Shown here in pieces: positions 1-20,052 of a DNA stretch of 64,000 nucleotides. The stretch spans positions 1-64,000 of the forward strand of contig NZ_QBKR01000001.1 in NCBI RefSeq assembly GCF_003054245.1, in the 5' to 3' direction. A model generated the notes under the pieces. The model did no database searches. It worked only from the letters and a program-made list of their open reading frames with translations, and was not told the origin of the DNA. The translations under genes were made by a program, and so were the position numbers. The stretch is from Melghirimyces profundicolus. Lineage in GTDB: Bacteria; Bacillota; Bacilli; Thermoactinomycetales; DSM-45169. The stretch's first letter is position 1, and each line of letters starts with the position of its first letter.

Positions 1-633
1 GAGGAGTCGATTGCTCGAAAACATGATTCTCCTTGGGCCGAAAAGATCCTTCCATCAAAAGGGATTACTGTATATGATCGGGGTTATCTGGATCTTGGGC
101 GACTGGATGGATGGGAAGATCAGGGACACTTGTTTGTGGTTCGCCTTCGAGACAACACCGTGGTTTCCAAGCAAAAAGGGCTGAAACGGCTGCCGGTGGA
201 GGGTTCCAATGTTATGGGAGATATGAGTGCGCAACTGGGTCGGGTAAAGAAAACGGATCATCGATTTCGAGTGGTTACTTTTCGCGACGGACGCGGCAAG
301 CCGATTCGGGTGGTCACGAACCTGTGGAATGTACCTGCGGAAACCATCGCTGCGCTTTACAAAGAGCGTTGGCAGGTGGAGCTCTTTTTTCGTTGGATCA
401 AACAGCATTTACATGTGAAAAAACTCTTCGGAACCAGCCCAAATGCAGTCTACAACCAGCTTTACGGTGCATTCATTGCTTATCTGCTGTTGAACTGGCT
501 TTACCAACAAACCCAGCCTGAATGGCGTACCGTCAAACTTTCATTTGTTCGCTTTGTTCGAAAGCTTTGTTGGCGGCAATTACCGACAGAAGTTGAACTA
601 TCCGTTTATGAGTTATTAGACAGATACCGATGA
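1..633 (+). CDS. IS4-family transposase, 5' truncated by window edge
   Basis: The frame is open from base 1 to a TGA at 631-633, so the start lies left of the window. The visible part carries the DDE strand YDRGYLDL near the left edge. The C-terminal IS4 signature Y-(2)-R-(3)-E-(6)-K is complete, reading YKERWQVELFFRWIK around 358-402, with the Glu as the third catalytic acid. The enzyme would cut and paste its own insertion sequence. A small inverted repeat (GTTGATT/AATCAAC, 639-658) follows the stop. No left end or inverted terminal repeat can be checked here. It sits in the AT-richer region that ends at the split sigK gene. Confidence 0.9.
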   Translation, partial: EESIARKHDSPWAEKILPSKGITVYDRGYLDLGRLDGWEDQGHLFVVRLRDNTVVSKQKGLKRLPVEGSNVMGDMSAQLGRVKKTDHRFRVVTFRDGRGKPIRVVTNLWNVPAETIAALYKERWQVELFFRWIKQHLHVKKLFGTSPNAVYNQLYGAFIAYLLLNWLYQQTQPEWRTVKLSFVRFVRKLCWRQLPTEVELSVYELLDRYR

Positions 634-638
634 TTTTG

Positions 639-658
639 GTTGATTTTCCCTAATCAAC
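639..658. repeat. Short inverted repeat after the IS4 transposase
   Basis: GTTGATT (639-645) and AATCAAC (652-658) are perfect 7-bp arms around a 6-nt loop, just after the transposase stop. There is no T-run, so it is a weak terminator candidate or part of the element end. Confidence 0.4.
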
Positions 659-669
659 AGGCCTGATAA

Positions 670-831
670 ATGACGTATATAGTGAAACACCTTATCAACG
701 GAGAGGCGAGGTGCATCGGTTTTGTGTTGGAGAATCACGATGGAACATGGGAAGCTTTTAACAATTCCGGCGAGCTTCAAAGATGGGTTTTGGAAAAAGC
801 ACCGTTTTTTACGCTGAAGATGGATGTGTGA
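670..831 (+). CDS. Small hypothetical protein, 53 aa
   Basis: An ATG frame of 53 codons follows the transposase by 36 nt. Composition looks protein-like: NGEARCIGFVLENHDGTWEA, then a segment ending LKMDV. I do not recognise a family. There is no convincing Shine-Dalgarno sequence before the ATG (GGCCTGATAA), so it could be the tail of a gene truncated by the insertion sequence. There are no membrane segments. Confidence 0.4.
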   Translation: MTYIVKHLINGEARCIGFVLENHDGTWEAFNNSGELQRWVLEKAPFFTLKMDV

Positions 832-1206
832 TGTGTCTTTTTGACGGGTAGTACTTAAACTGGTTGAAAAGTGTGGAAAGCCGGAAAGCGGAGTGGAAAG
901 ATGAAAATAAGACAAGTATTAACGATACAAAAAACTTTGTAACCGGGGATAAGCATGGATGCTGAGAAAATCACGTTGAAATGTTTGAGAGTAGAACGTG
1001 GAGGGAGATTGGGAAAGGGGGTGATGCGTCTCAGACGCTTGGCCTCCTACTTCACCTGGTATTACCCCTTCAAGCCCACCGGACCCGATGAGGGTCCTTT
1101 TTCTTGTATAAACATTAAAAATTTAGAATGGAGTGAGGGAAATCACCTTCAACACACATCCACTGTGGTGGGTGAACTGCAGATGACTTATGAAAATATT
1201 TGTATA
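832..1206. other. Non-coding stretch with a structured segment
   Basis: No gene is supported. The stretch contains pairable segments: ACGTT/AACGT near 973-1002, GCGTC/GACGC at 1026-1038, and an AAGGGG..CCCCTT pair around 1014-1072. It ends in an intrinsic terminator at 1081-1103. It looks like an RNA leader without its gene. Confidence 0.35.
1081..1103 (+). terminator. Intrinsic terminator of an orphan leader-like segment
   Basis: GGACCC (1081-1086), a GATGA loop and GGGTCC (1092-1097) form a 6-bp stem followed by TTTTTCTT. No intact gene precedes it closely. Confidence 0.6.
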
Positions 1207-1235
1207 TTGACAGTTATCATATTATTTGATAATTT
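1207..1235 (+). promoter_or_regulatory. Candidate sigma-A promoter for the sarcosine-oxidase-like gene
   Basis: TTGACA at 1207-1212 is a perfect -35. TAATTT (1230-1235, 17-nt spacer) or GATAAT (1228-1233, 15 nt) is the -10. It would start transcription just before two GAAC-type palindromes. Confidence 0.45.
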
Positions 1236-1243
1236 GAACGAAA

Positions 1244-1272
1244 TGAACGTGTTCATAGAAAGAACATGTTCT
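1244..1272. promoter_or_regulatory. Tandem palindromic operator candidate
   Basis: TGAACGTGTTCA (1244-1255, perfect 5-bp arms) and AGAACATGTTCT (1261-1272, perfect 12-bp palindrome) have centres 17 bp apart, immediately downstream of the 1207 promoter. The layout suits a dimeric repressor. The regulator is unknown. Confidence 0.5.
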
Positions 1273-1418
1273 TGATTTGAAATTGATTAAAGGCCTTACT
1301 CATGTCGATAGAAGAAGGTTTACATGATGGAATATGCATGACTGACTCCCCATCAAATGAATGCTGGAGACTTCTGGATTAACGGCTTGTTAACCATTCA
1401 GGGAGGGTTAAATGATCA

Positions 1419-2549
1419 ATGGATGCAGACATCGCAGTGATTGGCGTTGGGTCGATGGGCAGTTTTGCCCTGTGCGAGCTGGCTTCAATGGGAGTGAATG
1501 TGATCGGTTTTGAACGATATGCGCCCGGGCACGATAGAGGTGCAGGACACGGGGAATCTCGCATCTTTCGCACTGCATACGGGGAAGGGACTGACTATGT
1601 CCCGTTTCTACAGCAGGCACGAGATCTATGGAAGCATCTTGAATCTATGACAGGTATTGATATTTACACTGAAACGGGAGGCATGATGATTGGCAGGCCC
1701 AATGATGGCTTTCTTGAAGAGGTGTTGATGAGTGCAGAGGCGTACAATCTACCGCATCAAGTGTTAGATGCTGAAGAAGCGCGGGGCCGATTCCCACAAC
1801 ATCGGTTTGATAACGAAGACATTGTGTTCCTGGATCCGTTGGCAGGTGTGTTGCGGCCTGAGCTTGCAATTCAAGCTGCATCAACCCTCGCAACGGAAAA
1901 GGGAGCACGGCTTTATTGCGGGTGCCCAATTACGGCCCTTGAACCGCATAGTGCCGGTGTGACGATCCATTGTGAAGGGGAAAAGTTTCACGTTGGCCAT
2001 GTGGTGATCTCTGCTGGTGCTTGGACGTCTCGACTGCTACCGCAACTCAGCCTACCGGTTTGGGTTGAACGTCAAATCATGTTCTGGTATCCCGCAGGAA
2101 ACCCGCGGGAATTTGTACCGGATCGGTTTCCAATCAGCATTCGAATCACCGACGGAGATGCATGGTATGCCCTTCCTACCCTTGATGGGAAGACGGTCAA
2201 GGTTGCCCTTCATACCGAAGGAGAGCGGGTCGACCCAGATACCATAGACCGTGCAATCCATACAAAGGACAGCGAGCTCTTATCCCAATTTGCCCAGAAA
2301 TATATTCCGGATCTCGATTCTGAGCCCGAAAAGGGGAAAGTCTGTATGTACACGAACACACCAGACAACGACTTTGTTCTCGGTTCGGTATCGGGGGTTC
2401 CTCATGTCACATTACTCGGCCCCATGGGTGGACATGGATTCAAATTTGCGCCAATCATGGGCAAATTGGCTGCCGAGGTTGCCACTGGAATTTCTCCATC
2501 GCTCGCCATCGACCTATTCAGTCCTGATCGGCTGATTGGAGTGAAATAA
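1419..2549 (+). CDS. Sarcosine oxidase / N-methyl-amino-acid oxidase family flavoprotein
   Basis: 376 aa, close to the ~390 aa of monomeric sarcosine oxidase. The N-terminal Rossmann motif is VIGVGSMGS (residues 7-15). The motif around Cys309 (VCMYTNTPDNDF) matches the segment that carries the covalent flavin in monomeric sarcosine oxidase. The late GPMGGHGFKFAP segment is also family-typical. The reaction is oxidative demethylation or deamination of a small N-methyl amino acid with release of H2O2. The exact substrate cannot be read from sequence; SolA-like N-methyltryptophan oxidase is an alternative. GGGAGGG at 1401-1407 lies 11 nt upstream of the ATG. A permease-like pseudogene follows 94 nt downstream, so uptake and oxidation may once have been linked. 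Confidence 0.85.
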   Translation: MDADIAVIGVGSMGSFALCELASMGVNVIGFERYAPGHDRGAGHGESRIFRTAYGEGTDYVPFLQQARDLWKHLESMTGIDIYTETGGMMIGRPNDGFLEEVLMSAEAYNLPHQVLDAEEARGRFPQHRFDNEDIVFLDPLAGVLRPELAIQAASTLATEKGARLYCGCPITALEPHSAGVTIHCEGEKFHVGHVVISAGAWTSRLLPQLSLPVWVERQIMFWYPAGNPREFVPDRFPISIRITDGDAWYALPTLDGKTVKVALHTEGERVDPDTIDRAIHTKDSELLSQFAQKYIPDLDSEPEKGKVCMYTNTPDNDFVLGSVSGVPHVTLLGPMGGHGFKFAPIMGKLAAEVATGISPSLAIDLFSPDRLIGVK

Positions 2550-2643
2550 ACTCTAGTCTATATGGTTCAGTAACATGTTGTTGGTTACCTGGCACGAATG
2601 TTACTGAACCAAACCATTTAATGATACGAAGGAGGCTCCCACG

Positions 2644-3882
2644 ATGTCCAAGATCTTGACGATGGATGATGTTCCATTAAACAAGTTTCATAAACGGGTC
2701 GCGGTATTTACAAGCGGCGGATTTTTTTGTGACGGATATATATTGGGCTTAACCGGAATTGCGCTTGCACTTCTGGTTCCAGATTTAAATGTCAATCCAT
2801 TTTGGGAGGGGATGATCGCAAGTTCCGCTTTAATCGGATTATTCATTGGAGGTTTAATCTTCGGTTGGGTTACGGATCGTATCGGTAGACAGGTTGCGTT
2901 TGTGATCGATCTTGCAGCATTCATTGTCGTTTCCATTCTACAATTTTTTGTGACCGACGCGATACAACTCTTCATTCTCCGATTAATCATGGGTATAGCC
3001 ATCGGGGCAGATTATGCTATTGCACCAGCATTACTTTCGGAATTTTCGCCAAGAAGGGTTCGGGGAATGTTTCTCGCTTGGTTAAATGCGAGTTGGACAA
3101 TCGGATTTGTGGTAGCTGTTTTTGTTAGTTTTTTAATGCAGCATTATGGCGGTGCGGATGCATGGCGTTGGATTCTTGCAAGTAGTGCGGTTCCTGCATT
3201 GATCGTGCTTGGTTTGCGATTAGGAGCACCGGAATCACCACGATGGTTAGTGAAGCAAGGAAGGGTGGAGGAGGCCAAACGCATCATCCATGATTATCTG
3301 GGTCCCAATGTCGCCATAGATGATCTCTTTGTAGAAAAAGATACGAAAACACATTACCGGGAGTTATTTACAAAGAAATGGCGAAAACGGATTGCTGTAG
3401 GAGGAGGCTTTTGGTTTTGTCAGGTGACTCCGTATTTTGCGATTCTCACATTTGGTCCGTTGGTTTTGAGTCAAGTGGGTATTCAAAATGAATTTGCCGG
3501 GACGTTAGCAATGAACCTTGTCTTGCTCATCGGAGCGATGGTCGGTTTATGGATCGTCGATCGAGTACCTCGAAACAATTCCTGATGTCTACCTTTTTAA
3601 TCATGGCACTACCGCTATTGATATTAGGTAAGGGCATCGGGTGTCGGTGTATGCACAGCGATTAGCCGAGTGGGTGCTGCACTAGGTACGTTTCTACTTC
3701 CAATATCGATCGACTCCATTGGAATCGGTAGTACACTGATGATCGCTTGTGGAATTTGTATAATAGGCTTTTTGATGACAAAAGCGTGGGCCCCAGAGAC
3801 AAAGGGGTTAAATCTCATTGATGCATCGACGATTCATACAACCACTGAGATTACTGGCTCCGGCATAAAATTGCCCAAATGA
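2644..3882 (+). pseudogene. MFS transporter (sugar/metabolite-proton symporter type), frameshifted and internally deleted
   Basis: Residues 1-310 give the N-terminal two thirds of an MFS carrier with the loop motif GWVTDRIGRQ and PESPRWLV in the central loop. The frame then stops at 3583. The expected protein continues in another frame at 3586 (MSTFLIMALPLLILG), as if one A were lost from an AAAA run near 3574. After about 3626 the frame jumps again, to SGVGVCTAISRVGAALGT. That segment normally follows about 50-60 residues that are missing here. The end, APETKGL, is typical of the family. A small frameshift plus a deletion makes it a clear pseudogene. The start has the spacer GGAGGCTCCCACG before ATG 2644. 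Confidence 0.85.
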
Positions 3883-4100
3883 ATCGTTCCAGAAATACCT
3901 GCCCAATGTTCGCGCGATGTTGTGTCCCATATGCCGTAAGAATTTGGGTAGAGGTCTCATCCCTTCTGATCATAATACCAGACGCTGAACTCAGTCATGC
4001 ACTTTTACCACCCTTTCTCCCCAGAAGGGGAGATTGTCTTTTTTACCGAATTATATTCAGCAACTAGCGATAGAGAGAGCAAAAATGAAGGGTGATCAGT

Positions 4101-4751
4101 TTGAGTCGAAAAGAGATACAAACGAAACGGATGTGGATGTATTTTGTAAATGCAACCGTTGAGATTATTGAAAAAGAAGGCATTGAAGGCGTTACGGCAA
4201 GAAAAATTGCTGATCGAGCAGGTTATACAAGTTCTACCATTTATAATTACTTTGGAGAGCTTTCCCATCTTATTTTCTTTGCCTCTATGCGATTTGTTAA
4301 TGACTATATACAAGAAGTCCCTACATACATGAGTAAAGGAGTGAACTATTTAGAAAAATACTTGTTAAGCTGGGAATGTCTTTGTAAACATTCTTTCACT
4401 CGACCAGAAATTTATCATGCGGTTTTTATAGCTAATTTAGGTGGAAAACCCCAAGAACTACTGGATCACTACTATTCTGTCTATCAAAGTGATTTGATCG
4501 GTTTTCCGGACGATCTAAAACCATTAATTCTTGAGCACAACCTAATCAAGAGAAATCAAGCATTGTTGGAAATGGCGTCAAAAGAAAACATCGTAAGACC
4601 CGAAAACATAGAGGAAGTGAATGATATCATCATTCTCATTTGGGAGGGAATGATAACGACATTACTGAATCAAAGACGTGATTATGAACTGGAAGAAGCG
4701 ATAGAAAAAACGATGAGGTATATTAATAAAATCGCTTCCAAATTACTTTAG
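4101..4751 (+). CDS. TetR/AcrR family transcriptional regulator
   Basis: The N-terminal helix-turn-helix reads GVTARKIADRAGYTSSTIYN at about residues 28-47, followed by FGEL. The rest is an all-helical ligand domain ending MRYINKIASKLL. The protein is 216 aa from TTG 4101, which has GAAGG at a 9-nt spacing; GTG 4092 is the alternative start. The gene is AT-rich compared with the genes beyond 9.3 kb. It lies just upstream of the permease-ureohydrolase pair, in the same direction, so it may control them or itself. Ligand unknown. Confidence 0.8.
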   Translation: MSRKEIQTKRMWMYFVNATVEIIEKEGIEGVTARKIADRAGYTSSTIYNYFGELSHLIFFASMRFVNDYIQEVPTYMSKGVNYLEKYLLSWECLCKHSFTRPEIYHAVFIANLGGKPQELLDHYYSVYQSDLIGFPDDLKPLILEHNLIKRNQALLEMASKENIVRPENIEEVNDIIILIWEGMITTLLNQRRDYELEEAIEKTMRYINKIASKLL

Positions 4752-4871
4752 ATTTATTCATAGGGACGCATTTCCCGCGATAGGGAGGAAATGATGCACT
4801 CCCTGATCACAGTGCAGACTTTTCCACGCTCCAATGGACTGCATCGAATAATTCGAATGGAGGGTGACCGC
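4752..4871 (+). promoter_or_regulatory. Structured 5' leader of the permease gene
   Basis: AGGGAG (4782-4787) can pair with CTCCCT around 4797-4803, hiding a good ribosome site (GGGAGGAA) that precedes an in-frame ATG at 4791. TGCAG..CTGCA and CGAA..TTCG can form two more hairpins before the main ribosome site at 4859. I could not match it to a known riboswitch class. Confidence 0.35.
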
Positions 4872-6251
4872 ATGTTCGGCAAAGATTATTTTTATCTCGC
4901 TTTTGGCAGCATGATCGGCATCGGGTGGCTGGTATCCGTCCCTTTTTGGATCGATCTGGCAGGAAGTGTCGGGGCAATCATTGCAGTTCTCCTGACAACC
5001 GCCATCGCCATTCCCATCGGCTTTGCTTACGGTGAGCTGACCGCCTCCCTGTCCGTTTCCGGGGGAGAATTCGCTTATACCTTGAAAACATGGGGGCGAT
5101 TGCCGGGGTTTATTTGTGGATGGTTTTTGTGTTTGATGTATATCATGATTCTTCCCTGGGTCGCCATTGCAGTGGCTGTGCTCATCAGTTATTTGTTTCC
5201 TCAATTAGATGCTTTTCCTTTGTATACGATATTGGATTATCCGATTTATCTGCCCCACCTTCTGATCAGCTTGCTCATGGTTTTTCTCATCGTCTATATG
5301 AATATGAAAGGTGTAAAGTACACAAAGATATTTCAAAATGTAGTTACCATTCTCATGATTACGATCTTTGTTGTTTTTATCGTAAGCGGATGGTTGTTCG
5401 GTTCCGTGGAAAATACCCATCCGCTGTTTTCGCCCAAAGGTGAAGTGAATGGAATTCTCCTCGGCATCGCTTCTATTTTGTTTTTTATGAATGGCTTCGA
5501 CACGATTCCGAAAATGATGGAAGAAGCGAATCAAAAAATTAAACGATCCCGCTTGGGATGGGCTATCGTGGGTACGATCCTGGCCGGGGCTCTGCTCTAT
5601 ATATTAATCATCTTAGCTTCGAGCATGATGATGTCTCCCGGGCAGATGGACAAGCTCGGAGACCTGCCGCTGGCTGCCGCTTTTCAAAAAGCGACCGGTT
5701 CTTCAGTATTATCCGGTATTGTCATCTTTGGGGCATTGGCTGGTGTTGTTACCACGTTTAACGGTTTTCTAATGGCGGGAAGCCGCTTGATTTCCTCTTT
5801 TTCCACGGCTGGGTTTTTACACCCCGCATTTGGAACTCAGCACCCAGAATATCGGACACCTCACGTTGCGCTATGGGTGATGGCGGTTTTCTCTATGTTC
5901 GGAATCCTGTTGGGAAGAGGGGTACTTCTTCCTTTTATCATCTTGGGCGGGGTTTCGCTTCTGATCGCTTGGTTTAGCGTCTCCTTGAGTGTCATTCGAC
6001 TGCGTATGACCCATCCGGAGATGGTTCGCCCTTACAAGATGCCGGGTGGAATCTACATGGGTTACTTGGCATTCGTTCTTTCCGGTTCCTTTTTGATCAT
6101 GATGTTGATCCCGGGCACTCCGGTTTCCCTCGGCAAGGTGGAATATTCCCTGTTCCTCGCTTGGGTGGTATTTGGAGGGATGATCTATTTCTTTCAGTCA
6201 AAAAAGAGACTGTTTTCTCCAGAGAAAAAATCGGATGAAGGCATGAGTTGA
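4872..6251 (+). CDS. Amino acid permease, APC superfamily
   Basis: A 459-aa polytopic membrane protein with about 12 hydrophobic segments. The APC signature is in TM1 (GSMIGIGWL), and GFDTIPKMMEE follows the TM6 region as in the APC family. I chose ATG 4872 because GGAGGG (4859-4864) sits 7 nt upstream. An in-frame ATG at 4791 also has a ribosome site and would add 27 hydrophilic residues. The gene ends 15 nt before a ureohydrolase start, so the two form an operon. A shared role is likely: import of a guanidino or amidino compound, then hydrolysis. The substrate is inferred only from that context. Confidence 0.85.
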   Translation: MFGKDYFYLAFGSMIGIGWLVSVPFWIDLAGSVGAIIAVLLTTAIAIPIGFAYGELTASLSVSGGEFAYTLKTWGRLPGFICGWFLCLMYIMILPWVAIAVAVLISYLFPQLDAFPLYTILDYPIYLPHLLISLLMVFLIVYMNMKGVKYTKIFQNVVTILMITIFVVFIVSGWLFGSVENTHPLFSPKGEVNGILLGIASILFFMNGFDTIPKMMEEANQKIKRSRLGWAIVGTILAGALLYILIILASSMMMSPGQMDKLGDLPLAAAFQKATGSSVLSGIVIFGALAGVVTTFNGFLMAGSRLISSFSTAGFLHPAFGTQHPEYRTPHVALWVMAVFSMFGILLGRGVLLPFIILGGVSLLIAWFSVSLSVIRLRMTHPEMVRPYKMPGGIYMGYLAFVLSGSFLIMMLIPGTPVSLGKVEYSLFLAWVVFGGMIYFFQSKKRLFSPEKKSDEGMS

Positions 6252-6266
6252 TTGGAGGAGATCATT

Positions 6267-7151
6267 ATGAAAAAAAGCACATTAGGTATCCTGGGATTCC
6301 CTTGGGACGGAGGCGCCACATTGGGGAGGCCCGGTTCCCGTTTTGCACCTCAAGCGATTCGTGAGGCGCTCCAATGGTTCACCAACCGGATTGGTGATCA
6401 AAAAGTGTATGATGTAGAGAAAAAGAGGCTGGTCGACCTGACCAAAATGGAATTGAGTGATTACGACGATATCGATATCGCCGCGTACAGCACGGAAAAG
6501 ACGTTTCAAAACGCCGAAGACTCAGTGCGGGAATTGTTGAATTCCGGTGTGTTTCCATTAATCCTCGGCGGTGATCATTCCATCTCGTATCCCATGATCA
6601 AAGCCCTGCACGATCAGACCGAAGGAAAAGTCGGTATTATCCAGTTGGACGCCCACTTGGACTTGGTCGACGACTCCCCTGTACAAGGGCGGTTTTCCCA
6701 GAGCAGTCAGATGCGCCGGGCTTTGGAGCTCTCACGGATCGAACCGGAAAATATCGTCCAGATCGGGGTTAGAGGCTACAATTACCCTTGGTATGAGACC
6801 TATTTGAAAGAGACGGGTATCGTTCAAATCACGGCCGCCGAAGTACATCAAACGAAACCTAATCAGGTGATCGAGCGTACCTTAGCCGCCTGTGAGGGCG
6901 TGGAAAAAATCTATCTCACCTTTGATATCGACGTGTTGGATCCGGCCTTTGCACCAGGGACAGGCGCCAATGAACCTGGTGGCTTAACGCCTGTACAATG
7001 CTTGTCAATCCTGGAAGGGCTCTATCCCCACATCAATGCGATGGACATTGCGGAAGTCAATCCGCTCTATGACCATCATGGAATCACCAGCAGCCTCGCC
7101 GCTCGAATTGTTTTCGATTGTTATACGGCATTGGCTTGTAGGGGTAACTAA
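6267..7151 (+). CDS. Ureohydrolase (agmatinase/arginase family)
   Basis: 294 aa. The binuclear manganese site is visible: GGDHS (first His), LDAHLD (Asp, His, Asp) and FDIDVLDP (two Asp). RPGSRFAPQAIR near the N-terminus is typical of agmatinase-like members. The enzyme would hydrolyse a guanidino (or formimino) group to urea (or formamide). Agmatine, guanidinobutyrate, guanidine and formiminoglutamate are all possible. The start is ATG 6267, since GGAGGAG lies 6 nt upstream; TTG 6252 is in frame but has no ribosome site. It is translationally close to the upstream permease. Confidence 0.85.
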   Translation: MKKSTLGILGFPWDGGATLGRPGSRFAPQAIREALQWFTNRIGDQKVYDVEKKRLVDLTKMELSDYDDIDIAAYSTEKTFQNAEDSVRELLNSGVFPLILGGDHSISYPMIKALHDQTEGKVGIIQLDAHLDLVDDSPVQGRFSQSSQMRRALELSRIEPENIVQIGVRGYNYPWYETYLKETGIVQITAAEVHQTKPNQVIERTLAACEGVEKIYLTFDIDVLDPAFAPGTGANEPGGLTPVQCLSILEGLYPHINAMDIAEVNPLYDHHGITSSLAARIVFDCYTALACRGN

Positions 7152-7404
7152 TGTCATAAGGTAAATATGCTCAATAAATGTGAATTTGTTTATACCGGGA
7201 ACTCTCTCGGTCATATTTCTCTTGTTGGATCCATCATTAAAACTAGATTTTGACAAGTTGCTCTAAAAAAAGATGGTTAAATGAGATACCATGCTTCCAT
7301 TTTCTCTCATCGTGAATAACCGAAAATACTCAAAAAATAAATCCGGGGGGTACACTTCCCCTCGAAAGAATAAAGAACGCTTAGAAACCAAATTTCGAGG
7401 CCTG
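7152..7404. other. AT-rich intergenic stretch
   Basis: No supported gene. It contains a loose ATGAGA/TCTCAT inverted repeat near 7280-7310 and a GGGG/CCCC hairpin near 7346-7361. No clear terminator is seen for the ureohydrolase. Confidence 0.3.
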
Positions 7405-7611
7405 TTAGGGGTGATATGACCACTTCAGTTTCACACTCTGACTGGTCAGCTCGTTCAACAGGCTCAATTGATGCCGCTGCTTGGCAAAGTCAATATCAAT
7501 CTCCCGGGCATAGTCTTCATGGCAGACCTCAATAATTTTTTCGTTCGCCTAGCGCAGTTGTCACTTGGGACAAATCGTTGGCTTCTTTTTTGGCAACCTG
7601 GTCCAGCAGCT
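7405..7611 (-). pseudogene. Decayed reading frame of unknown family
   Basis: On the minus strand two protein-like segments sit in different frames. Starting near 7611 is LLDQVAKKEANDLSQ, which stops soon after. Nearer 7405 is EVCHEDYAREIDIDFAKQRH, continuing to a TAA at 7405-7407. Their juxtaposition suggests a frameshifted gene relic. I do not recognise the family. Confidence 0.35.
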
Positions 7612-7668
7612 ATCCAAATACACCCCGATGGACGGCGACAAACATAAAAGCATCTTCCACCCGACTGA

Positions 7669-7864
7669 GGTGGAGTACAATTGAAAGCCAGACAAAACGC
7701 ACCAAATGTAAGGGAGAGATTAGAATCGTATTATAAGTCAGAGGTTACGATACCTGCGAATAGGTGAACTTTGAACGGATCTGAGCCGAATGAGAAGCCA
7801 ACCTTGTGTATGTATGGAGGGGAAAGTCACAGTGGTATTTGATAAGGAGGGCGATGTAGTTTGA
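7669..7864 (+). pseudogene. Possible relic of a toxin C-terminal region
   Basis: Two short protein-like stretches lie in different frames: NAPNVRERLESYYKSEV (7669-7764) and MEGKVTVVFDKEGDVV (7814-7864). The latter ends in a VVFDKEGDVV strand of the kind often seen at the end of polymorphic toxin domains. The intact gene that follows resembles an immunity protein, which fits a broken toxin gene. The evidence is thin. Confidence 0.3.
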
Positions 7865-7908
7865 AAATGGCTTAAGCCCGAAGGTAAGGGGTGCGAAAGG
7901 ATGGATTG

Positions 7909-8397
7909 ATGCTTCATATGATGGTATCGAAAAGTGCGAATGAAATAAGCAGAGGTCAAGGAAAATGGACGCTTTCTTTTTACGAACCGGAGAACAGGGA
8001 AATCATCCTTCAGCCCACATGGCCAATGGTATACGCTTATCTGTACCAGGTTGATGGAATTCATTTAAGCCAACTTTCCCTGGATTTAGAGGGAACAGGG
8101 TCTTTATGTTTGGGTGGAGGAAACGTTACCGATGAATTTGATGATCCACGGCTTGACAGGGATGTCCGGCATTTCTGCCTGATTTATTTTGATGATCCAC
8201 CCGATGGGGTGGGAGTAACCCTAATCCGAAGAGACCATCTTTTCGATCCCGATGAAGAAGGTTACATGTGCTTAAATATCACTTGCGGGACCGATATCCC
8301 ACTATATATGTGTGTTCCCTTGCCAGAAGTATTGGAGGCTTTTCGATACTTTTTTCATACCGGAAGACGATCACCGCATTTGTCATGGGAAGATTAA
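7909..8397 (+). CDS. Putative immunity protein, Imm1-like
   Basis: A soluble 162-aa protein. Its plan (WTLSFYEPENREIILQPTW, a central LCLGGGN, and a C-terminal EAFRYFFHTGRRSPHLSWE) resembles the Imm1 family. Imm1 proteins neutralise deaminase-type and other toxins of polymorphic or contact-dependent systems. I place the start at ATG 7909 because AAAGGA is about 8 nt upstream; GTG 7891 is in frame and would add six residues. No intact toxin gene is next to it, only the decayed frames on both sides. The family assignment rests on motif resemblance alone. Confidence 0.45.
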   Translation: MLHMMVSKSANEISRGQGKWTLSFYEPENREIILQPTWPMVYAYLYQVDGIHLSQLSLDLEGTGSLCLGGGNVTDEFDDPRLDRDVRHFCLIYFDDPPDGVGVTLIRRDHLFDPDEEGYMCLNITCGTDIPLYMCVPLPEVLEAFRYFFHTGRRSPHLSWED

Positions 8398-8504
8398 ATC
8401 ACGTGCCGCGCCCCAAATACCGATATGCCTACTTTTGTATGAGGTACACCCCCTTCCCATGAAAATAAATTTCAAGCCTGTACAAGGCCAAATAGAAGCC
8501 CTGA

Positions 8505-8677
8505 GGGGCACTCTTGGAGTTGTTCACCAACCTCCCCGAGGACGGCCAGCTGTTACTACCTGGTGGTAAAGTGTCCGCGGCGAGTTACCAGTGGGTGTCG
8601 GGGTGATCGCCGGTGTCGCCCCGGGTGTCATAGGGTACGGGCCGATTCGGAAAGTTATTGACAAGTATACGCTTTGA
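8505..8677 (+). pseudogene. Frameshifted reading-frame relic
   Basis: Frame one reads LFTNLPEDGQLLLPGGKV and stops near 8605. An overlapping frame then reads VGVGVIAGVAPGVIGYGPIR and stops at 8675-8677. The glycine-rich second part could be a membrane or pretoxin-type segment. The family is not recognised. It lies just after the Imm1-like gene. Confidence 0.35.
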
Positions 8678-8679
8678 AT

Positions 8680-8717
8680 CGAAACGTACCGTCCTTGATG
8701 CAGACTCGTACGTTTCG
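8680..8717. repeat. Inverted repeat, 10-bp arms
   Basis: CGAAACGTAC (8680-8689) and GTACGTTTCG (8708-8717) are perfect complements with an 18-nt loop. No T-run follows. It may be an operator or an end-binding site of the element. Confidence 0.5.
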
Positions 8718-9052
8718 GGAAAAAGCTGGTTGACGCGGCGAGCAGTCCAAAAGACCATGCAAAGATGTCTAGAGAGTCGTGTAGTATTGAAAAATCTACT
8801 TTGTTTCGGGAAGGGGGAATGGGTACGACATTGATACCTTGATCTTTACTGAAAAAGTCCTTGAAAAATCACACCTTTTTCCTTTTACTCTTGAGGCTGG
8901 TCCCAGGAGTAAGTAGACCACTTTCGTACCATCTTACATTCCCGGCGCTTCTAGTGGCGACATGACGACCAGGCCGGAGACAAGCTGGCACAGTTGGTCG
9001 CTGCCAGCCACCAGTAGATCATCCTTATTAAAACAGATAAAGAATAGAGGTT

Positions 9053-9331
9053 AATGAAATCACCTTGATCGATGTGTTGGGGACAGACCGGGACGAGATC
9101 GTGGAGACTGTCCAATTGATGATCGAGAAAAGGAAGATATACGGCCATCTGCACATTTTGGACGAAAGAGAGCAGGAAGTGATCAAAAGCCGGTTCGGCC
9201 TCTCCGGCGGCAAAGAAAAAACCCAGCGGGAAATCGCCAGGGAGCTGGGAATCTCCCGGTCCTACGTTTCCCGGATTGAAAAAAGGGCCCTGATCAAGCT
9301 GTACCACGAGTTTTACCGGGTGGGTTCCTGA
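9053..9331 (+). CDS. sigK: Sigma-K C-terminal part (SpoIIIC-like), separated from its 5' part
   Basis: From N-E-I at 9053 the frame gives 92 residues that match the last third of sporulation sigma-K, including region 4 ([20 protein letters not shown]) and the ending HEFYR. No region 2 or 3 precedes it; an in-frame TAA lies at 9038-9040. In B. subtilis sigK is split at exactly this point into spoIVCB and spoIIIC by the skin element, with recombination in a 5-bp AATGA core. AATGA is present here at 9053-9057. The fragment alone cannot bind core polymerase normally. It would become functional only after excision joins it to the 5' part, which is not in the window. It could otherwise be a remnant if an intact sigK exists elsewhere. 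Confidence 0.85.
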
Positions 9332-9757: not shown

Positions 9758-9966
9758 AGCTTGTGATTGATGGTCAGGCTCAGAAGAGGGGAAGCGCTTA
9801 CCCGAGACAGGGACTTTGCTGTCCTGCCCGGTGGAGAATCAGCCGGCAAGGGCGTTCAGGGGCAAAAGCTTCTCTGTGTTGCATCCGCAGGCGTTGGCCC
9901 CTGCCCGCAGCAGGAAGATTCGGAGCGGCTTCGGGTCGATGCTGCCGCTCACTTTTTCACCATACT
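9758..9966. repeat. Dispersed non-coding repeat, copy A (~209 bp)
   Basis: It starts AGCTTGTGATTGA and ends GCCGCTCACTTTTTCAC. The first module (from GGGGAAGCG through the CCGCAGCAGGA stretch) matches copy B at 43412 nearly base for base. It lacks the second module of B. That loss is explained by deletion between two GGAGCGG repeats that flank the module in B. The internal pair ACCCGA/TCGGGT replaces ACCCAAA/TTTGGGT of the other copies, so pairing is kept. Confidence 0.8.
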
Positions 9967-10139: not shown

Positions 10140-11282
10140 TTGATTTCCTTTCAACCCACGGAAGAGGAAAGGGCGTTTGTGGATCTGGCCAAGGATTTTG
10201 CCGAAGAACGGATCCGGCCGATGGCAAGGGAGTGTGAAGAGAAACGGCAAGTGAGCCCCGAGCTCGTTGAAAAGATCAACGAACTGGGGTTTCTCGCACT
10301 GGAGCTTCCCGAGAGTTGGGGTGGACTGGAAATGCCCTTGATCTCTCAAGTGCAGATCCTGGAAGCTCTCAGTTTCGGGGATCTGGGTGTGGTGCAGGGG
10401 TTGCCCGGCGCCGGCGAAGCGGCTTCGTTGATCCGCCTGATTCCGGAACATTCCGTTCTGAATGTTTACAGGGAGGCCGGCCGGGAGGGCTCCCGGCCGA
10501 CCGTCGCCTTTCTTCACGCTGTCGATAACGGGACTCCGCAAGGTTTGAAGGTCGAGGCGGAGGGAGGCGGCTATGTTTTAAACGGCACCTCCCAGCCCGT
10601 CAGGCTGGCGGCATTCGCGGATTATTTGGCCGTGTCGGCTGAAGACTCCCGGGGCGAACCCCTGCTCCTGTGGTTGGACAAAGCCGACGGTCGATGGCAC
10701 GCGGAGGAAGGGGACTATCGTCTTGGATTGCTGGCTTCGGGTTGTGCCCGGATCCGCTTCGACAACGAACGTGTCTCTCAGAATCAGGTGCTCGCCAAAG
10801 GCGATGAGGCACAGGGGATGCTGTCAAAAGCGCTCTCCCGCATTCGGGTGTTGGAAGCAGCCAAAGAAGTGGGATTGATGGAAGCCGCGTTGTCTTACAC
10901 CACCGGATACACCGCGCAGCGCAAAGCCTTCGGCCAGGAAATCGCCAAGTTCCAAGGGGTCTCCTTCGCTCTCGCCGATATGGCCATCGAAACCCAGGCT
11001 GCCCGTCATCTCGTCTGGCGATCGGCGACGAAAACAGACCGAGGCGAATCCGACGCCCGTGATTCTTCCTTCAGCCTGCTGTCCCGGGTGCACCGATCCC
11101 TTCGCTTTGTGACCGATTCCGCTGTCCAGCTGCTCGGTGGACACGGATACGTTCAGGAATTCCCCGTGGAGAAGTGGATGCGGGATGCACAGGCGCAAAC
11201 GGTCCTTTACGGCCGGGAGGGTGATCTTTTGGTCCGCTGCGGCGAACAGTTGCTTAATGAACGAATTCCGACTGAAGTTTAA
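10140..11282 (+). CDS. Acyl-CoA dehydrogenase homologue lacking the catalytic glutamate
   Basis: 380 aa with the usual plan: helical N-terminus, a beta middle domain, and a helical end with LLGGHGYVQEFPVEKWMRDA. Where active members read IYEGT after MRDAKIFT, this one reads LYGRE after MRDAQAQT. The catalytic Glu position is thus Tyr357. Start TTG 10140 has GGGGGAGGG 7 nt upstream. A second dehydrogenase that keeps the Glu starts 12 nt downstream. By analogy with two-gene heteromeric acyl-CoA dehydrogenases, this may be the non-catalytic partner of a mixed complex. FAD binding and the substrate chain cannot be judged. Probably repressed through the 10042 site. Confidence 0.8.
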   Translation: MISFQPTEEERAFVDLAKDFAEERIRPMARECEEKRQVSPELVEKINELGFLALELPESWGGLEMPLISQVQILEALSFGDLGVVQGLPGAGEAASLIRLIPEHSVLNVYREAGREGSRPTVAFLHAVDNGTPQGLKVEAEGGGYVLNGTSQPVRLAAFADYLAVSAEDSRGEPLLLWLDKADGRWHAEEGDYRLGLLASGCARIRFDNERVSQNQVLAKGDEAQGMLSKALSRIRVLEAAKEVGLMEAALSYTTGYTAQRKAFGQEIAKFQGVSFALADMAIETQAARHLVWRSATKTDRGESDARDSSFSLLSRVHRSLRFVTDSAVQLLGGHGYVQEFPVEKWMRDAQAQTVLYGREGDLLVRCGEQLLNERIPTEV

Positions 11283-11294
11283 GGAGGACAACCG

Positions 11295-12512
11295 ATGATC
11301 TCGTTTGAAATGTCATCGCACCAACAACAGGTGAAGGACGTGGTTCATTGGTTTGCCGAAAACGAAATGCGGCCGATTTCCATGGAAGCGGACAAAATGG
11401 GAAGGGTCCCGGATGACTGGCTCGAAAAGATCAATCAGCTGGGCATTCAATTGAGCACGTCCTCCTTCGACGGGGGGGAACAAAAATCAGAAAAAAAGGA
11501 AAAGAAACGGAAATCCGAGCGTCAGGGCAACCGGCTGGCGGTGATCGCCTCCGAAGAACTGGGTTGGGGAGATCCGGCGATTGCCCTGACCCTCCCGGGC
11601 CCGGGACTCGGGGGGCCGCCGGTGCAGTCAAGCGGAACGCCGGAACAGAAGGAACGTTTTCTCTCCATCTTTTCAAAAGATGAGCCGCCCCGTTGGGGTG
11701 CTTACGCTTTAACCGAGCCGGATGCCGGATCCGATGTCTCCGGGATCCGGACCACCGCCAAAAAAGTGGAGGGTGGATACGTTCTTAACGGACAAAAGAT
11801 TTTCATCACCAACGGCGCACGCGCTTCCTGGGTGGTCGTGTTCGCCACTGTCGACCGCAGCTTGGGACGCGCCGGGCATCGGGCATTCGTCGTCGAAAAA
11901 GGAACGCCGGGATTCCGCTGCACCCGCCTGGCCCGCAAAATGGGCATTCGTGCTTCTGAGACGGCGGAGTTGTTGTTCGAGGATTGCTTCGTGCCGGAGG
12001 AAAACCTCCTGGGCGGCGAGGCGTACTACGAATCCCGGGGTTCCGGTCCGTCGGGTTTTCAGGTTGCGATGAAGACCTTTGACAATACCCGTCCCATTGT
12101 GGCGTCCATGGCGATCGGGATCGCCCGCGCCGCCTATGAGTATACATTGGATTGGGTCCGTCGCGAGTACCCCAGGCACGGACGCTTTTACCATCGGGCT
12201 TCGGAAGTGTTGGCGAACGCGGAATTGGACATCGAGGCGGCCCGCCTTCTGACATGGGAAGCGGCTTGGAAGGCCGACATTGGTCAGCCCAACGCCAAGG
12301 AAGCTGCCATGTGCAAGGCCTACTCGGGAAAAATCGCCCTCGATGTGTGTGCCAAATGCCTGGAACTCCTCGGCCCCGCCGGGTTGGAGAATCACATCCT
12401 CGAGAAGCTCTACCGCGATGCCAAGATCTTCGACATCTTCGAAGGCACCAATCAAATCCAACACCTGGTGACGGCCCGTCAACTGTATGAACCCCACGGG
12501 GTCCGTGTGTGA
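11295..12512 (+). CDS. Acyl-CoA dehydrogenase
   Basis: 405 aa. The FAD/substrate segment ALTEPDAGSDVSGI and the C-terminal YRDAKIFDIFEGTNQIQ are complete, with catalytic Glu383 in FEGT. The enzyme introduces the alpha-beta double bond in acyl-CoA and passes electrons to electron-transfer flavoprotein. A lysine-rich insertion (QKSEKKEKKRKSERQ) replaces a surface loop near residues 57-75, which is unusual. The ribosome site AAGGAGG lies 7 nt upstream of the ATG. It is the second gene of the operon with the Glu-less homologue and is followed by an SCP2 protein, so the operon handles lipids. Confidence 0.9.
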   Translation: MISFEMSSHQQQVKDVVHWFAENEMRPISMEADKMGRVPDDWLEKINQLGIQLSTSSFDGGEQKSEKKEKKRKSERQGNRLAVIASEELGWGDPAIALTLPGPGLGGPPVQSSGTPEQKERFLSIFSKDEPPRWGAYALTEPDAGSDVSGIRTTAKKVEGGYVLNGQKIFITNGARASWVVVFATVDRSLGRAGHRAFVVEKGTPGFRCTRLARKMGIRASETAELLFEDCFVPEENLLGGEAYYESRGSGPSGFQVAMKTFDNTRPIVASMAIGIARAAYEYTLDWVRREYPRHGRFYHRASEVLANAELDIEAARLLTWEAAWKADIGQPNAKEAAMCKAYSGKIALDVCAKCLELLGPAGLENHILEKLYRDAKIFDIFEGTNQIQHLVTARQLYEPHGVRV

Positions 12513-12589
12513 AGAAGGGGGAAAAGCGAGCCGGGAACGGTGGAGGATCCAGTAACCAGGTGTAGGAGCCGTGTTTTGCCGTAGCGAGA

Positions 12590-12612
12590 CCGGCAAACAA
12601 CTCGTTTGCCGG
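12590..12612. repeat. Hairpin between the dehydrogenase and the SCP2 gene
   Basis: CCGGCAAAC (12590-12598) and GTTTGCCGG (12604-12612) form a perfect 9-bp stem with a 5-nt loop and no T-run. It may be an mRNA processing or stability element. Confidence 0.5.
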
Positions 12613-12645
12613 GAAGGATCACAATTTTGGAAAGGGGAATGGAAA

Positions 12646-13011
12646 ATGGCGAAGAACATTCAGGATTACACCGTGGAGGAAGCCTGGGAGGAGATCGAAA
12701 AGAATTTGAATGAAAATCCCGAACCGATCAAAGGGATGAACGTTGTTTATCAGTACGACATTTCCGGAGACGAAGAAGGAGCCTATCAGCTCCACTTGTC
12801 CGGTGACAAGGCGAAGGTGGAGAAAGGAACCCCCGCCGAACCCGATTGTACGTTGCAGATGTCAGCCGAGGACTTCAAAGACTTGCTGGTGGGAAACCTG
12901 AACGGAACCGCCGCCTTCATGTCCGGGAGGCTGAAGATCAAAGGGAACATCGGGCTGGCGATGAAATTGGAAAGCCTGCTCCGGAGATATGACACCAGTC
13001 AATATCAATAA
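12646..13011 (+). CDS. SCP2 sterol-binding domain protein
   Basis: A 121-aa single SCP2-fold domain: an alpha-beta plan with YQLHLSGDKAKVEKGTPAEP, then the DCTLQMSAEDFKDLLVG core and SGRLKIKGN, where family members bind lipid in a tunnel. No signal peptide, so cytosolic. ATG 12646 follows AAAGGGGAATGG; an in-frame ATG at 12571 lacks a ribosome site. The gene is co-directional with the two acyl-CoA dehydrogenases, 133 nt away, which suggests lipid or acyl-CoA carriage, though no ligand is proven. Confidence 0.8.
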   Translation: MAKNIQDYTVEEAWEEIEKNLNENPEPIKGMNVVYQYDISGDEEGAYQLHLSGDKAKVEKGTPAEPDCTLQMSAEDFKDLLVGNLNGTAAFMSGRLKIKGNIGLAMKLESLLRRYDTSQYQ

Positions 13012-13018
13012 TGGATGG

Positions 13019-13053
13019 ACCCGGTTCGGCTCCCCCGGACCGGGTTGCTTTTT
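13019..13053 (+). terminator. Intrinsic terminator after the SCP2 gene
   Basis: ACCCGGT (13019-13025) pairs with ACCGGGT (13039-13045), followed by TGCTTTTT. Confidence 0.8.
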
Positions 13054-13417
13054 GATCGAAAGCCCTCTCAACCTGCGGCTCAAAATTCGCAGATAACAGG
13101 GAGAAGGATTGGCTGAGGAGGGGTATCTGCCACCAGCTGTCTCTGAACATGGGGGAAGGGGGAAAACAGGGGTCGACAAAAAATCAATGTTATGTCAAGA
13201 TGCTTTTGGTGTGTGATGAGCATGGATGGATGCGTTACCATCCTGAAGATCAGTTGGGGGAGGGTCGAAGGAAAAGAGATTCGGACATGATATTCAGCGA
13301 AGAATGATTTCCCTCTATTTCCAAATAAAGTCCATTCCCGCAGACAAGAAGATCCGGGCGTTCGGGGTTTCCCTCTTCCCAAAGCGGGTAAAGGGATCGC
13401 AAGAATCCGAAACAAAT
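13054..13417. other. Intergenic stretch upstream of odhA
   Basis: No convincing gene. A 35-codon ATG frame at 13200 has no ribosome site. The odhA promoter candidate follows at 13418. Confidence 0.35.
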
Positions 13418-13446
13418 TTTACCGAGTGGGCTCAGCGAGATATAAT
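13418..13446 (+). promoter_or_regulatory. Candidate promoter of odhAB
   Basis: TATAAT at 13441-13446 with TTTACC at 13418-13423, spacer 17 nt. It would give a leader of about 130 nt before odhA. Confidence 0.45.
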
Positions 13447-13581
13447 AGAGGGCGAGGATCCCCATGGTGCGGAAATGGTGGGTCCTTGCCTTTTGGGTGT
13501 TTACGGATTCATTTTTTAAATGGATGCTAAACGGGACACCGCCAGTGAATTTTAAATAAAAAGCAGTTGGAGGTTCTTTGG

Positions 13582-16470
13582 ATGTCAACAGGGAAAACCG
13601 GAATGGGAACTCCATGGAAGGGCGTCCACAGCCACAACCTGGCGTATCTTCTGGACCAGTATGACCGATACAGCCAGGATCCGGAAGCCGTGGATCCCGA
13701 ATTGAAAAAGCTGTTTGAAGAGTGGGGACCACCGCCGGCAACCATCGGGGATGCCGCCGATTTAAGGGGGGTCGCTCCCGTTCAACCTTCCGACGCCCCG
13801 GCTACCGTCCCCGATTTGAGAAAAGTCGTTTTGGCCGAGAAACTGTCCCACAAGATCCGGACGTACGGTCACCTTGACGCAAAGATCGATCCCCTCGGGG
13901 TCCACGGAAGCAAACCCAACCCCCTCCTCGACCCGGCCGAGTACGGGTTGACGGAAGACGATCTGAAAGCGATTCCCGCTCATGTGATGTGGGAAGAGGA
14001 AGATGAAGAAATTCAGACGGGACTGGACGTCTACAAACGTCTCCGTCAAATTTACACCCAGTCCCTCGCTTTTGAATTCACCCATGTGCACAACCGGGAG
14101 GAACGAAGATGGTTGCGCCACATGGTCGAATCCAAAGAATTTCTTCCCTCCCTTTCCAAGGAGAAGCGGGTGAATGTGCTGAACCGCCTGGTGGAAGTGG
14201 ACGGTTTTGAAAAATTCCTCCATAAAACCTTTGTGGGTCAAAAGCGTTTCTCCATTGAAGGCGTTGACATGCTGGTGCCGATGCTGGACGAAATCATCCA
14301 TCGCAGTGTGCATGGCGGAATGAACAACGTCATGATCGGCATGGCGCACCGCGGCCGTCTCAATGTGTTGGCCCATGTGCTGGGGAAACCCTATGAAACC
14401 ATTTTCTCCGAGTTCCACCATGCGCCCAACAAGGAGTTGGTCCCCTCTGAGGGTTCCATGGGGCTCAACTACGGCTGGACCGGAGACGTGAAATACCATC
14501 TGGGCATGGATCGGGAAGTCGACGAAAGCGACACTCACCATACCCGCCTGACCTTGGCCAACAACCCGAGCCACTTGGAGTTTGTCAATCCCGTGGTGGA
14601 GGGTTACACCCGGGCGGCCCAGGAAGACCGCAGCAAAGCCGGCTATCCCGAGCATGACGTGGAGAAAGCGTTGGCCGTACTCATCCACGGGGACGCCGCC
14701 TTCCCGGGGGAAGGCATTGTGGCCGAAACCCTCAACATGAGCCGTCTGAGGGGTTACCACACCGGGGGAACGATCCACATCATCGCCAACAACCAATTGG
14801 GCTTCACCACGGAGCATCTGGATTCCCGCTCCACCACCTATTCCAGTGATCTGGCCAAAGGCTTCGAAATCCCGGTGGTCCATGTCAACGCAGACGATCC
14901 GGAAGCCTGTCTGGCGGCGATCCACCTCGCTTATGAGTACCGCAGGCAATTTCACAAAGATTTCCTGATTGACTTGATCGGTTACCGCCGTTTCGGTCAT
15001 AACGAGATGGACGATCCCAAGGCCACCCAGCCGCAAATGTATGCCAAGATCGAGAAGCATCCTCCGGTAAGGGACCTGTATGCCGGGAAACTGAAATCGG
15101 AAGGTCTGATCACCGACGAGGAATTGAAGAAGCTGAACAAAAAGGTTCAGGATCGGTTGCAAAAGGCGTATCAAAAGGTGAAGGAAAGCCGGGAAAAGGG
15201 TGCGGAAGATGAACGGAGCTCTGAAAAAGTTCCGGGTCCCCTGCCGGAAGTGGATACGGGTGTACCGGTCGACACCCTTCGGGAAATCAATGAAGGGCTG
15301 TTGAAACGGCCGGAAGGATTCAAAGTCTATCCCAAGCTGGAGAAAGTGTTGAAGCGGCGCGCGGGCGCCCTGGACGGGGATGGCAAGGTGGACTGGGCTC
15401 TGGCGGAAACCCTTGCTTTCGCCACGATTCTGGCGGATGGAAAGGGAATCCGACTGACCGGACAGGATTCGGAGCGGGGAACGTTTGCTCACCGTCACCT
15501 GGTCCTGCACGATCCGGAGACCGGGAAAACCTACTGCCCTCTGCACGGTCTGCCGCAGGCCAAGGCCTCATTCGCCATCCACAACAGTCCGCTGTCCGAG
15601 GCGTCGGTGCTGGGTTTTGAGTACGGGTACAACGTACAGGAACCGGAAGCGCTGGTTCTGTGGGAGGCGCAGTTCGGCGACTTTGTCAATGCCGCCCAAG
15701 TGATCATCGACCAGTTTCTGGCTGCCGGACGCGCCAAGTGGGCCCAGCGCTCCAGCCTGGTGATGCTGTTACCCCACGGTTATGAAGGACAGGGGCCCGA
15801 GCATTCCAGCGCTCGTCTGGAACGCTTCCTGCAGTTGGCGGCGGAAAACAACTGCGTGATCGGCAATCTGACCACCGCTGCGCAATATTTCCATATCCTG
15901 CGCCGTCAGGCCGCGTTGGCCGGAAAGGAAGAAGCCCGGCCCTTGATCCTGATGACACCGAAGAGCTTGATCCGGAACAAACGCTCCGCTTCGAGCGGCG
16001 TGGAATTTGAGTCCGGCCGATTCCAACCGGTGATCGAAGAGCCCCTCCTGGGATCCCGTCCGGACCGGGTGGAACGGCTCATCCTGGCCAGCGGGAAAGT
16101 GGCCGTCGATCTGGAAACGGAATTGGAGGACATGGAAGAAATACCGGATTGGTTACACATTTTGAGGGTGGAACAGCTGTATCCGTTCCCGAAGAAAGAA
16201 ATCCAGGCGGTGATCCACCGGCTGAAAAACCTGAAGGAAATCGTGTGGGTACAGGAGGAACCCAAAAACATGGGCTCCTGGTTCTACATGGAACCCCGGC
16301 TTCGGGAAGCCGTCCCTTCCCGTTTGAACATCCGCTACGTCGGACGTCCGGAACGGTCCAGCACCGCCGAGGGACAACCCGATGACCATGATCGGGAGCA
16401 AAGCCGTATCCTGACCGAAGCCCTCAACCCGGAAACGATCAAAACCGAAACCATCGCGGGAGGTAAATGA
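13582..16470 (+). CDS. odhA: 2-oxoglutarate dehydrogenase E1 component
   Basis: 962 aa. The N-terminal signature [13 protein letters not shown], the thiamine-diphosphate domain ([30 protein letters not shown]) and the C-terminal transketolase-like domain ([20 protein letters not shown]) are those of OdhA/SucA. It decarboxylates 2-oxoglutarate and transfers succinyl to the lipoyl arm of E2 in the TCA cycle. The length fits Bacillales OdhA, without the fused acyltransferase domain of mycobacteria. Start ATG 13582 has GGAGG about 8 nt upstream; a TTG at 13567 is inside that ribosome site. odhB starts 1 nt after the stop, so translation is coupled. The E3 subunit gene is not in the window. Confidence 0.97.

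Positions 16471-17892: not shown

Positions 17893-20052
<2,160 letters not shown>

Follow-up and report, generated by a model that had tools for sequence, protein, structure and literature searches.

The right border of an interrupted sigK gene

The window analyzed here, a stretch of 64,000 nucleotides from Melghirimyces profundicolus, carries the 3' piece of the sporulation gene sigK, with a recombination core at the left end of the piece and host DNA to its right. Spore formers need sigK late in sporulation. The window begins with the very first base of contig C1 (307,950 bases), in an assembly of 67 contigs and 3.77 Mb. The features around the border are the following.

1..9052 (no strand): very probably the right-hand end of an element, cut by the contig edge at left (attR at its right, no match near the sigK of the congener G001, GC content)
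9032..9052 (+): element half of attR; its arm AACAGATAAAGA (9032-9043) recurs in inverted form within attL on contig C24
9038..9040 (+): in-frame TAA that closes the 3' piece at left, read from the sequence
9050..9331 (+): sigK 3' piece, VNEITLIDV...VGS, matching TIGR02846 and 81% identical in DNA to the intact sigK of G001
9053..9064 (+): recombination core AATGAAATCACC, with AATGA at 9053-9057, identical in the 5' piece at C24:15194-15205
10140..15951 (+): host flank right of sigK, three blocks in the same order as right of the intact G001 sigK, 75-78% DNA identity

The frame of the 3' piece reads V-N-E-I-T-L-I-D-V from 9050 and ends at a stop codon at 9329-9331, and from the coordinates AATGA corresponds to nucleotides 421-425 of sigK. 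Against the SigK profile TIGR02846 the piece aligns at positions ~138/140-227 and scores 118.2-121.1 bits, where the cutoff is 298.65. The first-pass annotation had described it as the last third of sigma-K, starting at the AATGA of 9053-9057 and preceded by a stop at 9038-9040. These positions are exact, but the piece makes up about 40% of the protein (92 of 232 residues). The same annotation had equated this AATGA with the site of the Bacillus subtilis skin element, and AATGA does mark the B. subtilis recombination site (PMC10745906). The 12-bp core AATGAAATCACC and the 12-bp arm AACAGATAAAGA each occur once in the window, where shuffled sequences give expectations of 0.03 and 0.01. Nothing to the left of 9046 matches the 20 kb that surround the intact sigK of G001. 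Dispersed repeats that are pairwise 88-96% identical are present in the window at 9761-9928, 43416-43584, 43588-43711, and 49196-49318, and the first of these copies sits just downstream of sigK.

The 5' piece and a large serine recombinase on a second contig

Since base 1 is a contig edge, the partners that had been predicted to the left of it can sit only on other contigs. A TIGR02846 search of the genome located the sigK 5' piece at C24:14774-15232. It reads ...GTDKEGNEIT and then diverges, and it covers profile positions 3-145 with 237.6 bits in the genome search and 239.5 bits when scored alone. Convergent with it lies a recombinase ORF (C24:15235-16911, minus strand), the two stop codons being 2 bp apart. 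The likely start of this ORF at 16779 gives a large serine recombinase of 514 amino acids. Its frame is open from end to end, the Resolvase and Recombinase domains score above cutoff, and it is the sole PF07508 match in the genome. The best match among solved structures is YokA of SPbeta (9dxh, E 6.9e-46).

The 5' part of sigK and the large serine recombinase expected by the first-pass annotation thus both exist and adjoin each other, and the 5' piece contains the same AATGAAATCACC core; their place is contig C24, beyond the contig edge, and not simply left of base 1. A second, intact sigK, which that annotation had suggested looking for, was not found by the TIGR02846 search of the genome. 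The one full-length match, on C32, is SigE, with 436.7 bits against a SigE cutoff of 348.6 and 264.4 bits against the SigK cutoff of 298.65. With both partners present and attR at the right edge, the assignment of 1-9052 to element DNA is very probably right.

Attachment sites and the predicted excision

The two borders contain the same 12-bp core, beginning at C24:15194 and at window position 9053, and the element-side arms are inverted outside it, AACAGATAAAGA in the window and its complement just inside attL. When the two element ends are joined, the resulting attP is a palindrome at 19 of 24 positions, a score that no shuffle out of 20,000 reached, and its best centre is the GA of AATGA. 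The same GA centre was best in all four relatives tried, with 20/24 in G005, 15/24 in G006, 20/24 in G007, and 14/24 in G009 (shuffle fractions 0, 0.00005, 0, and 0.00145, respectively).

These features suggest how sigK could be restored. The recombinase would bind the inverted arms on either side of the core, whose centre is the GA of AATGA, and recombine attL with attR. The element, with C24 and C1 as its presumed two ends, would leave as a circle carrying attP, and sigK would be rejoined in frame to encode a sigma factor of 232 amino acids. Excision would presumably be confined to the mother cell. The predicted junctions are given below; neither the rejoined nor the circular form is present in the assembly of M. 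profundicolus.

Rejoined sigK: 5' end of sigK, then AATGAAATCACC-TTGATCGATG
Circle: AACAGATAAAGAATAGAGGTT-AATGAAATCACC-CTTACTCTTTATCTGTT

It is therefore highly likely that the window holds the right border (attR and the sigK 3' piece) of a skin-class element, that the left border and the recombinase lie on C24, and that recombination between attL and attR rejoins sigK.

Selection on the two pieces

The two pieces of sigK are under strong purifying selection. Joined between the G and the A of AATGA, they give 232 codons and a stop. TIGR02846 gives the rejoined protein 363.5 bits, above the SigK cutoff of 298.65, which neither piece reaches alone. The intact protein of the congener G001 is 93% identical to the joined product. 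Comparison of the joined gene with that of G001 gave a dN of 0.038 and a dS of 1.24 (dN/dS 0.031), with dN/dS of 0.036 for the 5' piece and 0.022 for the 3' piece. Such constraint speaks for continued use of the gene, which would then have to be rejoined. If sigK were instead the dead remnant of an old prophage insertion in a strain that no longer makes sigma-K, its assembly in split form only would be expected, and one of the cargo genes, an MFS transporter, does look broken. However, the low dN relative to dS, the recombinase frame that is open throughout, and the intact core and arms make a dead gene very unlikely.

Extent of the element

The element is at least 49 kb long if C24 and C1 bound one element, with 40.2 kb on C24 and 9.05 kb on C1. 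The contig ends, C24:55380 and C1:1, lie in two different multi-copy sequences, each of which recurs in the genome; the one at the edge of C24 reads like the start of a transposase. As the ends are unlike and multi-copy, the order of C24 and C1 is not fixed, some DNA between them is missing, and the size is a minimum. GC content is 45.7% at 650-9050 and 57.7% right of sigK. The element parts range from 45.7 to 53.0%, and the C24 left flank is also at 49.0%, so that GC alone does not mark the border. The C24 left flank shares no DNA with G001-G008, which tells little because the left flanks of those eight genomes share only 92 bp among themselves.

The multi-copy contig ends also bear on the idea that the pieces are real but have been moved or inverted by insertion sequence rearrangements, so that simple excision would no longer rebuild sigK or would remove unrelated chromosome. 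Consistent with this are the lack of synteny between the C24 left flank and G001, a 333-bp, 91% identical copy of the sigK upstream region and first coding bases within the element (C24:29137-29469, beside a 1.4-kb repeat), and the 3' piece of Shimazuella soli, which is on the opposite strand. Against it, both pieces are under equally strong purifying selection, and a dead gene would not keep them so. Rearrangement of this kind is unlikely, and simple excision of a skin-class element is the preferred reading.

Cargo genes

The recognized cargo of the element is mostly metabolic, which was counted against the skin-class reading. The part of the element in the window contains the following genes.

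1..633 (+): IS4-family transposase, truncated on its 5' side by the contig edge (NF033592, E 1.5e-45); also on C48 and C13 and, in part, on C3
1419..2549 (+): N-methyl-L-tryptophan oxidase-like FAD oxidoreductase (NF008425, 371.5 bits, cutoff 257)
2644..3882 (+): MFS transporter, apparently broken (2644-3585, next ORF 3670-3882; PF00083 profile positions 47-316 of 452 only)
4092..4751 (+): TetR-like regulator (PF00440, E 3.1e-9)
4791..6251 (+): APC-type amino-acid permease (PF13520, E 1.5e-44)
6252..7151 (+): agmatinase-like ureohydrolase (TIGR01230, 175.5 bits, cutoff 174.3)
7891..8397 (+): Imm1 immunity protein, borderline match (PF14430, 22.5 bits, cutoff 22.4)

In the C24 part, 45 ORFs were picked, of which 32 were searched in at least one library and 18 against PHROGs. 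Genes for phage-like repressors and for DnaD- and DnaC-like proteins are found beside the recombinase. Further along C24 are a Mrr-type endonuclease, a sugar PTS, and a hexuronate cluster consisting of a TRAP transporter, tagaturonate reductase, glucuronate isomerase, KDPG aldolase, and a sugar kinase (C24:30973-42662). The hexuronate cluster lies within the DNA presumed to be excised, and its metabolic genes would thus be lost by the mother cell. The 1.4-kb repeat is present in two copies in the C24 part and reads like an insertion sequence.

The repressor-, DnaD-, and DnaC-like genes raise the possibility that the element is an active temperate phage merely using sigK as its attB, as is the case in the relative G007, whose element has major head, portal, and tape-measure genes. 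But no head, tail, or packaging family was found among the 18 of 45 C24 ORFs compared with PHROGs or among the element ORFs of the window searched in Pfam and NCBIfam, and an active phage is very unlikely here.

A candidate directionality factor

An ORF of 50 amino acids is divergent from the recombinase (C24:16848-17000), and a second copy is located at ~18194-18328. Its relatives were sought at 19 loci, each encoding a recombinase at least 55% identical and all distinct once L099 and L100, repeats of L044 and L045, were dropped. At 11 of the 19, two of which are the query loci, a relative with E<1e-3 lies within ~220 bp of the recombinase start; at the Kroppenstedtia guangzhouensis locus it occupies the following position.

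L044, 9775-9927: relative of the 50-aa protein

The remaining eight loci comprise three with a weak match at that place (L046, L047, L056), four with a relative 3.7-5.5 kb away (L049, L051, L052, L097), and one with none (L050). PHROGs and Pfam gave no informative family for the 50-aa protein. Its position prompts the guess that the ~50-aa divergent protein is a recombination directionality factor (RDF). In B. subtilis the RDF Skr has 64 amino acids and is encoded on the same strand as spoIVCA, which it overlaps (PMC6957869), so that a divergent ORF would be a different arrangement from that of skin. An skr-like RDF overlapping the recombinase start was also considered and was rejected, as there is no ORF of 28 or more amino acids there on the recombinase strand.

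Recombinase and sigK state in relatives

The distribution of the recombinase within the family follows the state of sigK. Of ten genomes, including that of M. profundicolus (G000), four have a full-length sigK (G001, G003, G004, and G008), and in the other six the gene is interrupted (G000, G002, G005 (K. guangzhouensis), G006, G007, and G009 (Paludifilum halophilum)). Alignments of 150 bp or less were dropped before counting. A recombinase at least 67% identical to that on C24 is found in all six interrupted genomes and in none of the four with a full-length gene. K. guangzhouensis was counted as interrupted only. Its sigK appeared to lack residues 113-140, but an ambiguous base lies exactly there (L044 ~11590, at the end of the 5' piece), and an assembly fault is the likelier explanation.

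A wider survey of named genomes gave 15 loci with a recombinase 55-76% identical. A sigK piece is present in the fetched stretch at 12 of the 15 loci, those with a recombinase at least 60% identical. At the other three (L053, L054, L055; 55-56% identical) there is no sigK piece within the fetched 10 kb, showing that the recombinase family is not tied to sigK everywhere. Four further loci are on viral contigs. The recombinase of Thermoanaerobacterium phage THSA-485A is 55.9% identical; a DUF955 gene comes before it, and the annotation lists no small divergent ORF there.

In G007 three junction forms are present in the assembly. A sigK whose two sides already meet across the core (residues 1-170) forms the end of contig C6; attR, adjoined by the 3' end of the recombinase, forms the end of C19; and C14 carries the joined attP as a palindrome (loci L123, L152, L153). 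C6 and C19 overlap by exactly 95 bp, as do C19 and C14, which is the kind of overlap that a branch met during assembly should produce. No attL form was found in G007. C14 encodes tape-measure, major head, and portal proteins, and the G007 element is therefore a phage; its orientation is reversed, with the recombinase at attR. The G007 forms are what a recombinase of the C24 family acting at exactly this core would leave, while control by the mother cell is outside their reach.

sigK in three or four pieces

A full-length sigK match is often lacking in the order. Of 42 genomes searched, 41 gave matches; 20 of these have a full-length SigK, defined as one match covering at least residues 16-229, and 21 have pieces only. 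G020 (67% complete, no match) was left out of the 41, and G007 was counted as lacking a full-length gene, its rejoined copy ending at a contig edge. Four of the genomes with pieces (G018, G027, G029, G048) have a single piece that passes the E-value limit, and for these a contig-edge artefact is possible.

Eight named genomes were chosen from 18 loci for closer comparison; the choice was not random, as seven hinted at further cuts and at L045 the partner piece was missing. None of the eight has a full-length SigK apart from matches of ~50% identity, which were taken for SigE. The gene is in four pieces in Lihuaxuella thermophila, Shimazuella alba, and S. soli, and in three in S. kribbensis, Brevibacillus thermoruber, B. 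laterosporus, and G006, a genome in a single contig. The metagenome-assembled genome RYN_352 has at least three pieces, its N-terminal piece not being found, and Paludifilum has two pieces and a duplicate of the 5' piece. The loci with several pieces include the following.

L097 (G006:C1:2422001-2442000): single-contig genome G006
L128-L130: Lihuaxuella
L131-L132: Shimazuella soli
L133-L134, L138: Brevibacillus

SigK pieces of 55% identity or less were dropped before the pieces were counted. The gene is cut at three places, namely near residue 67, at a first N-E-I (~113), and at a second N-E-I (~141), which is the site of the window, and a distinct recombinase family accompanies each of them. 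At the third site, identity to the M. profundicolus recombinase is 62.8-73.7% in the seven multi-piece genomes. At the second, the other five genomes with this cut have recombinases 60-64% identical to the one in G006. Within Lihuaxuella, S. kribbensis, and S. soli, the first-site enzyme shares 29-31% identity with its second-site counterpart; S. alba shows only a weak first-site fragment, at the edge of a contig. The representatives examined, one per family, have the same three domains, two of them above cutoff in every case. S. alba and S. soli have the second-site arms ATTGACATTAG and CTAATGTCAAT; those of the other genomes are degenerate.

Rejoining in silico gave an ungapped SigK in all seven genomes tried, two of which are Brevibacillus, with join points chosen by hand within the shared core and with the intact gene in view. 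Identity to the intact G004 protein is 91.7% for G006; the values are 85.8% for Lihuaxuella, 82.5% for S. alba, 82.1% for both S. kribbensis and S. soli, 80.3% for B. laterosporus, and 79.9% for B. thermoruber. The 3' piece of S. soli (L132, G012:C1:373661-373930) is on the strand opposite the other three pieces, so that inversion rather than excision would be needed there. The pieces are spread over three contigs in S. alba and two in Lihuaxuella, and their order in these genomes is not fixed by the assembly.

Overall, sigK in this order and in Brevibacillus is probably modular, with three integration sites (~67, 113, and 141) used by separate recombinase families; genes in three or four pieces would need two or three rearrangements, the last one in S. 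soli being an inversion. On this view the window represents the simplest state of such a gene. No account of sigK in more than two pieces was found among the open-licence papers listed, judged mostly from titles and the beginnings of abstracts. These results add a spore-forming order in which 21 of 41 examined genomes, about half, are without a full-length sigK match, and they point to genomes, one of them in a single contig, with one developmental gene in three to four pieces. Long-standing questions become testable: the reason for which such elements persist in sporulation genes, the sequence in which a single mother cell carries out several excisions, and the way in which different recombinase families can use the same 700-bp gene. 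Paired att sites and recombinases of three families are also supplied for genome engineering.

In Paludifilum, a stretch of 505 bp from the 5' region of sigK, reaching up to the second site, is present twice at 98.8% identity (G009:C132, locus L100, reverse-complement 812-1316 and 12312-12816). The second-site recombinase lies between the two copies and is in two broken parts, and the duplication may have rescued sigK once the second-site element could no longer leave. In M. profundicolus itself, a SigK-like fragment of 46 residues (C16:67156-67293; residues 23-68, 80% identity) stops near the first integration site and is perhaps the remnant of another insertion.

Comparison with known elements

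The element of M. profundicolus is a further skin-class case, at an AATGA site already known from Bacillus. With the B. subtilis skin element (SpoIVCA) it shares the sigK target, AATGA, and a recombinase beside the 5' piece on the opposite strand (PMC10745906, PMC6957869). The likeness covers target, site, and layout. Unlike skin, the recognized cargo here is largely devoted to sugar-acid and amino-acid metabolism. Bacillus cereus AH820, J7, and J62 have insertions at sigK position 423 with AATGA, and in AH820, where the recombinase adjoins the 5' part, PCR demonstrated excision (PMC10745906). The site in sigK is the same as in M. profundicolus, while the host order and the cargo differ.

Other elements in sigK use different sites. 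Island IV of Bacillus cereus biovar anthracis is excised developmentally from sigK and has an adjacent recombinase, but it is inserted at position 195 and without AATGA (PMC10745906); its position resembles the first site of Lihuaxuella and Shimazuella and not that of the window. In Clostridioides difficile the recombinase CD1231 and the RDF CD1234 excise the skin element from sigK, at a different site and with the orientation opposite to that of B. subtilis skin (PMC5025042). The Alicyclobacillus phage MMB025, reported in 2026, is also integrated in sigK and has a SpoIVCA-family integrase; in contrast to the element described here, its core is TCTC and it is an infectious phage (PMC13141910). 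Excision of SPbeta by SprA/YokA rebuilds spsM (PMC4191935). Although the SPbeta enzyme is the best solved match of the C24 recombinase, the two are only ~30% identical, and the target of SPbeta is spsM.
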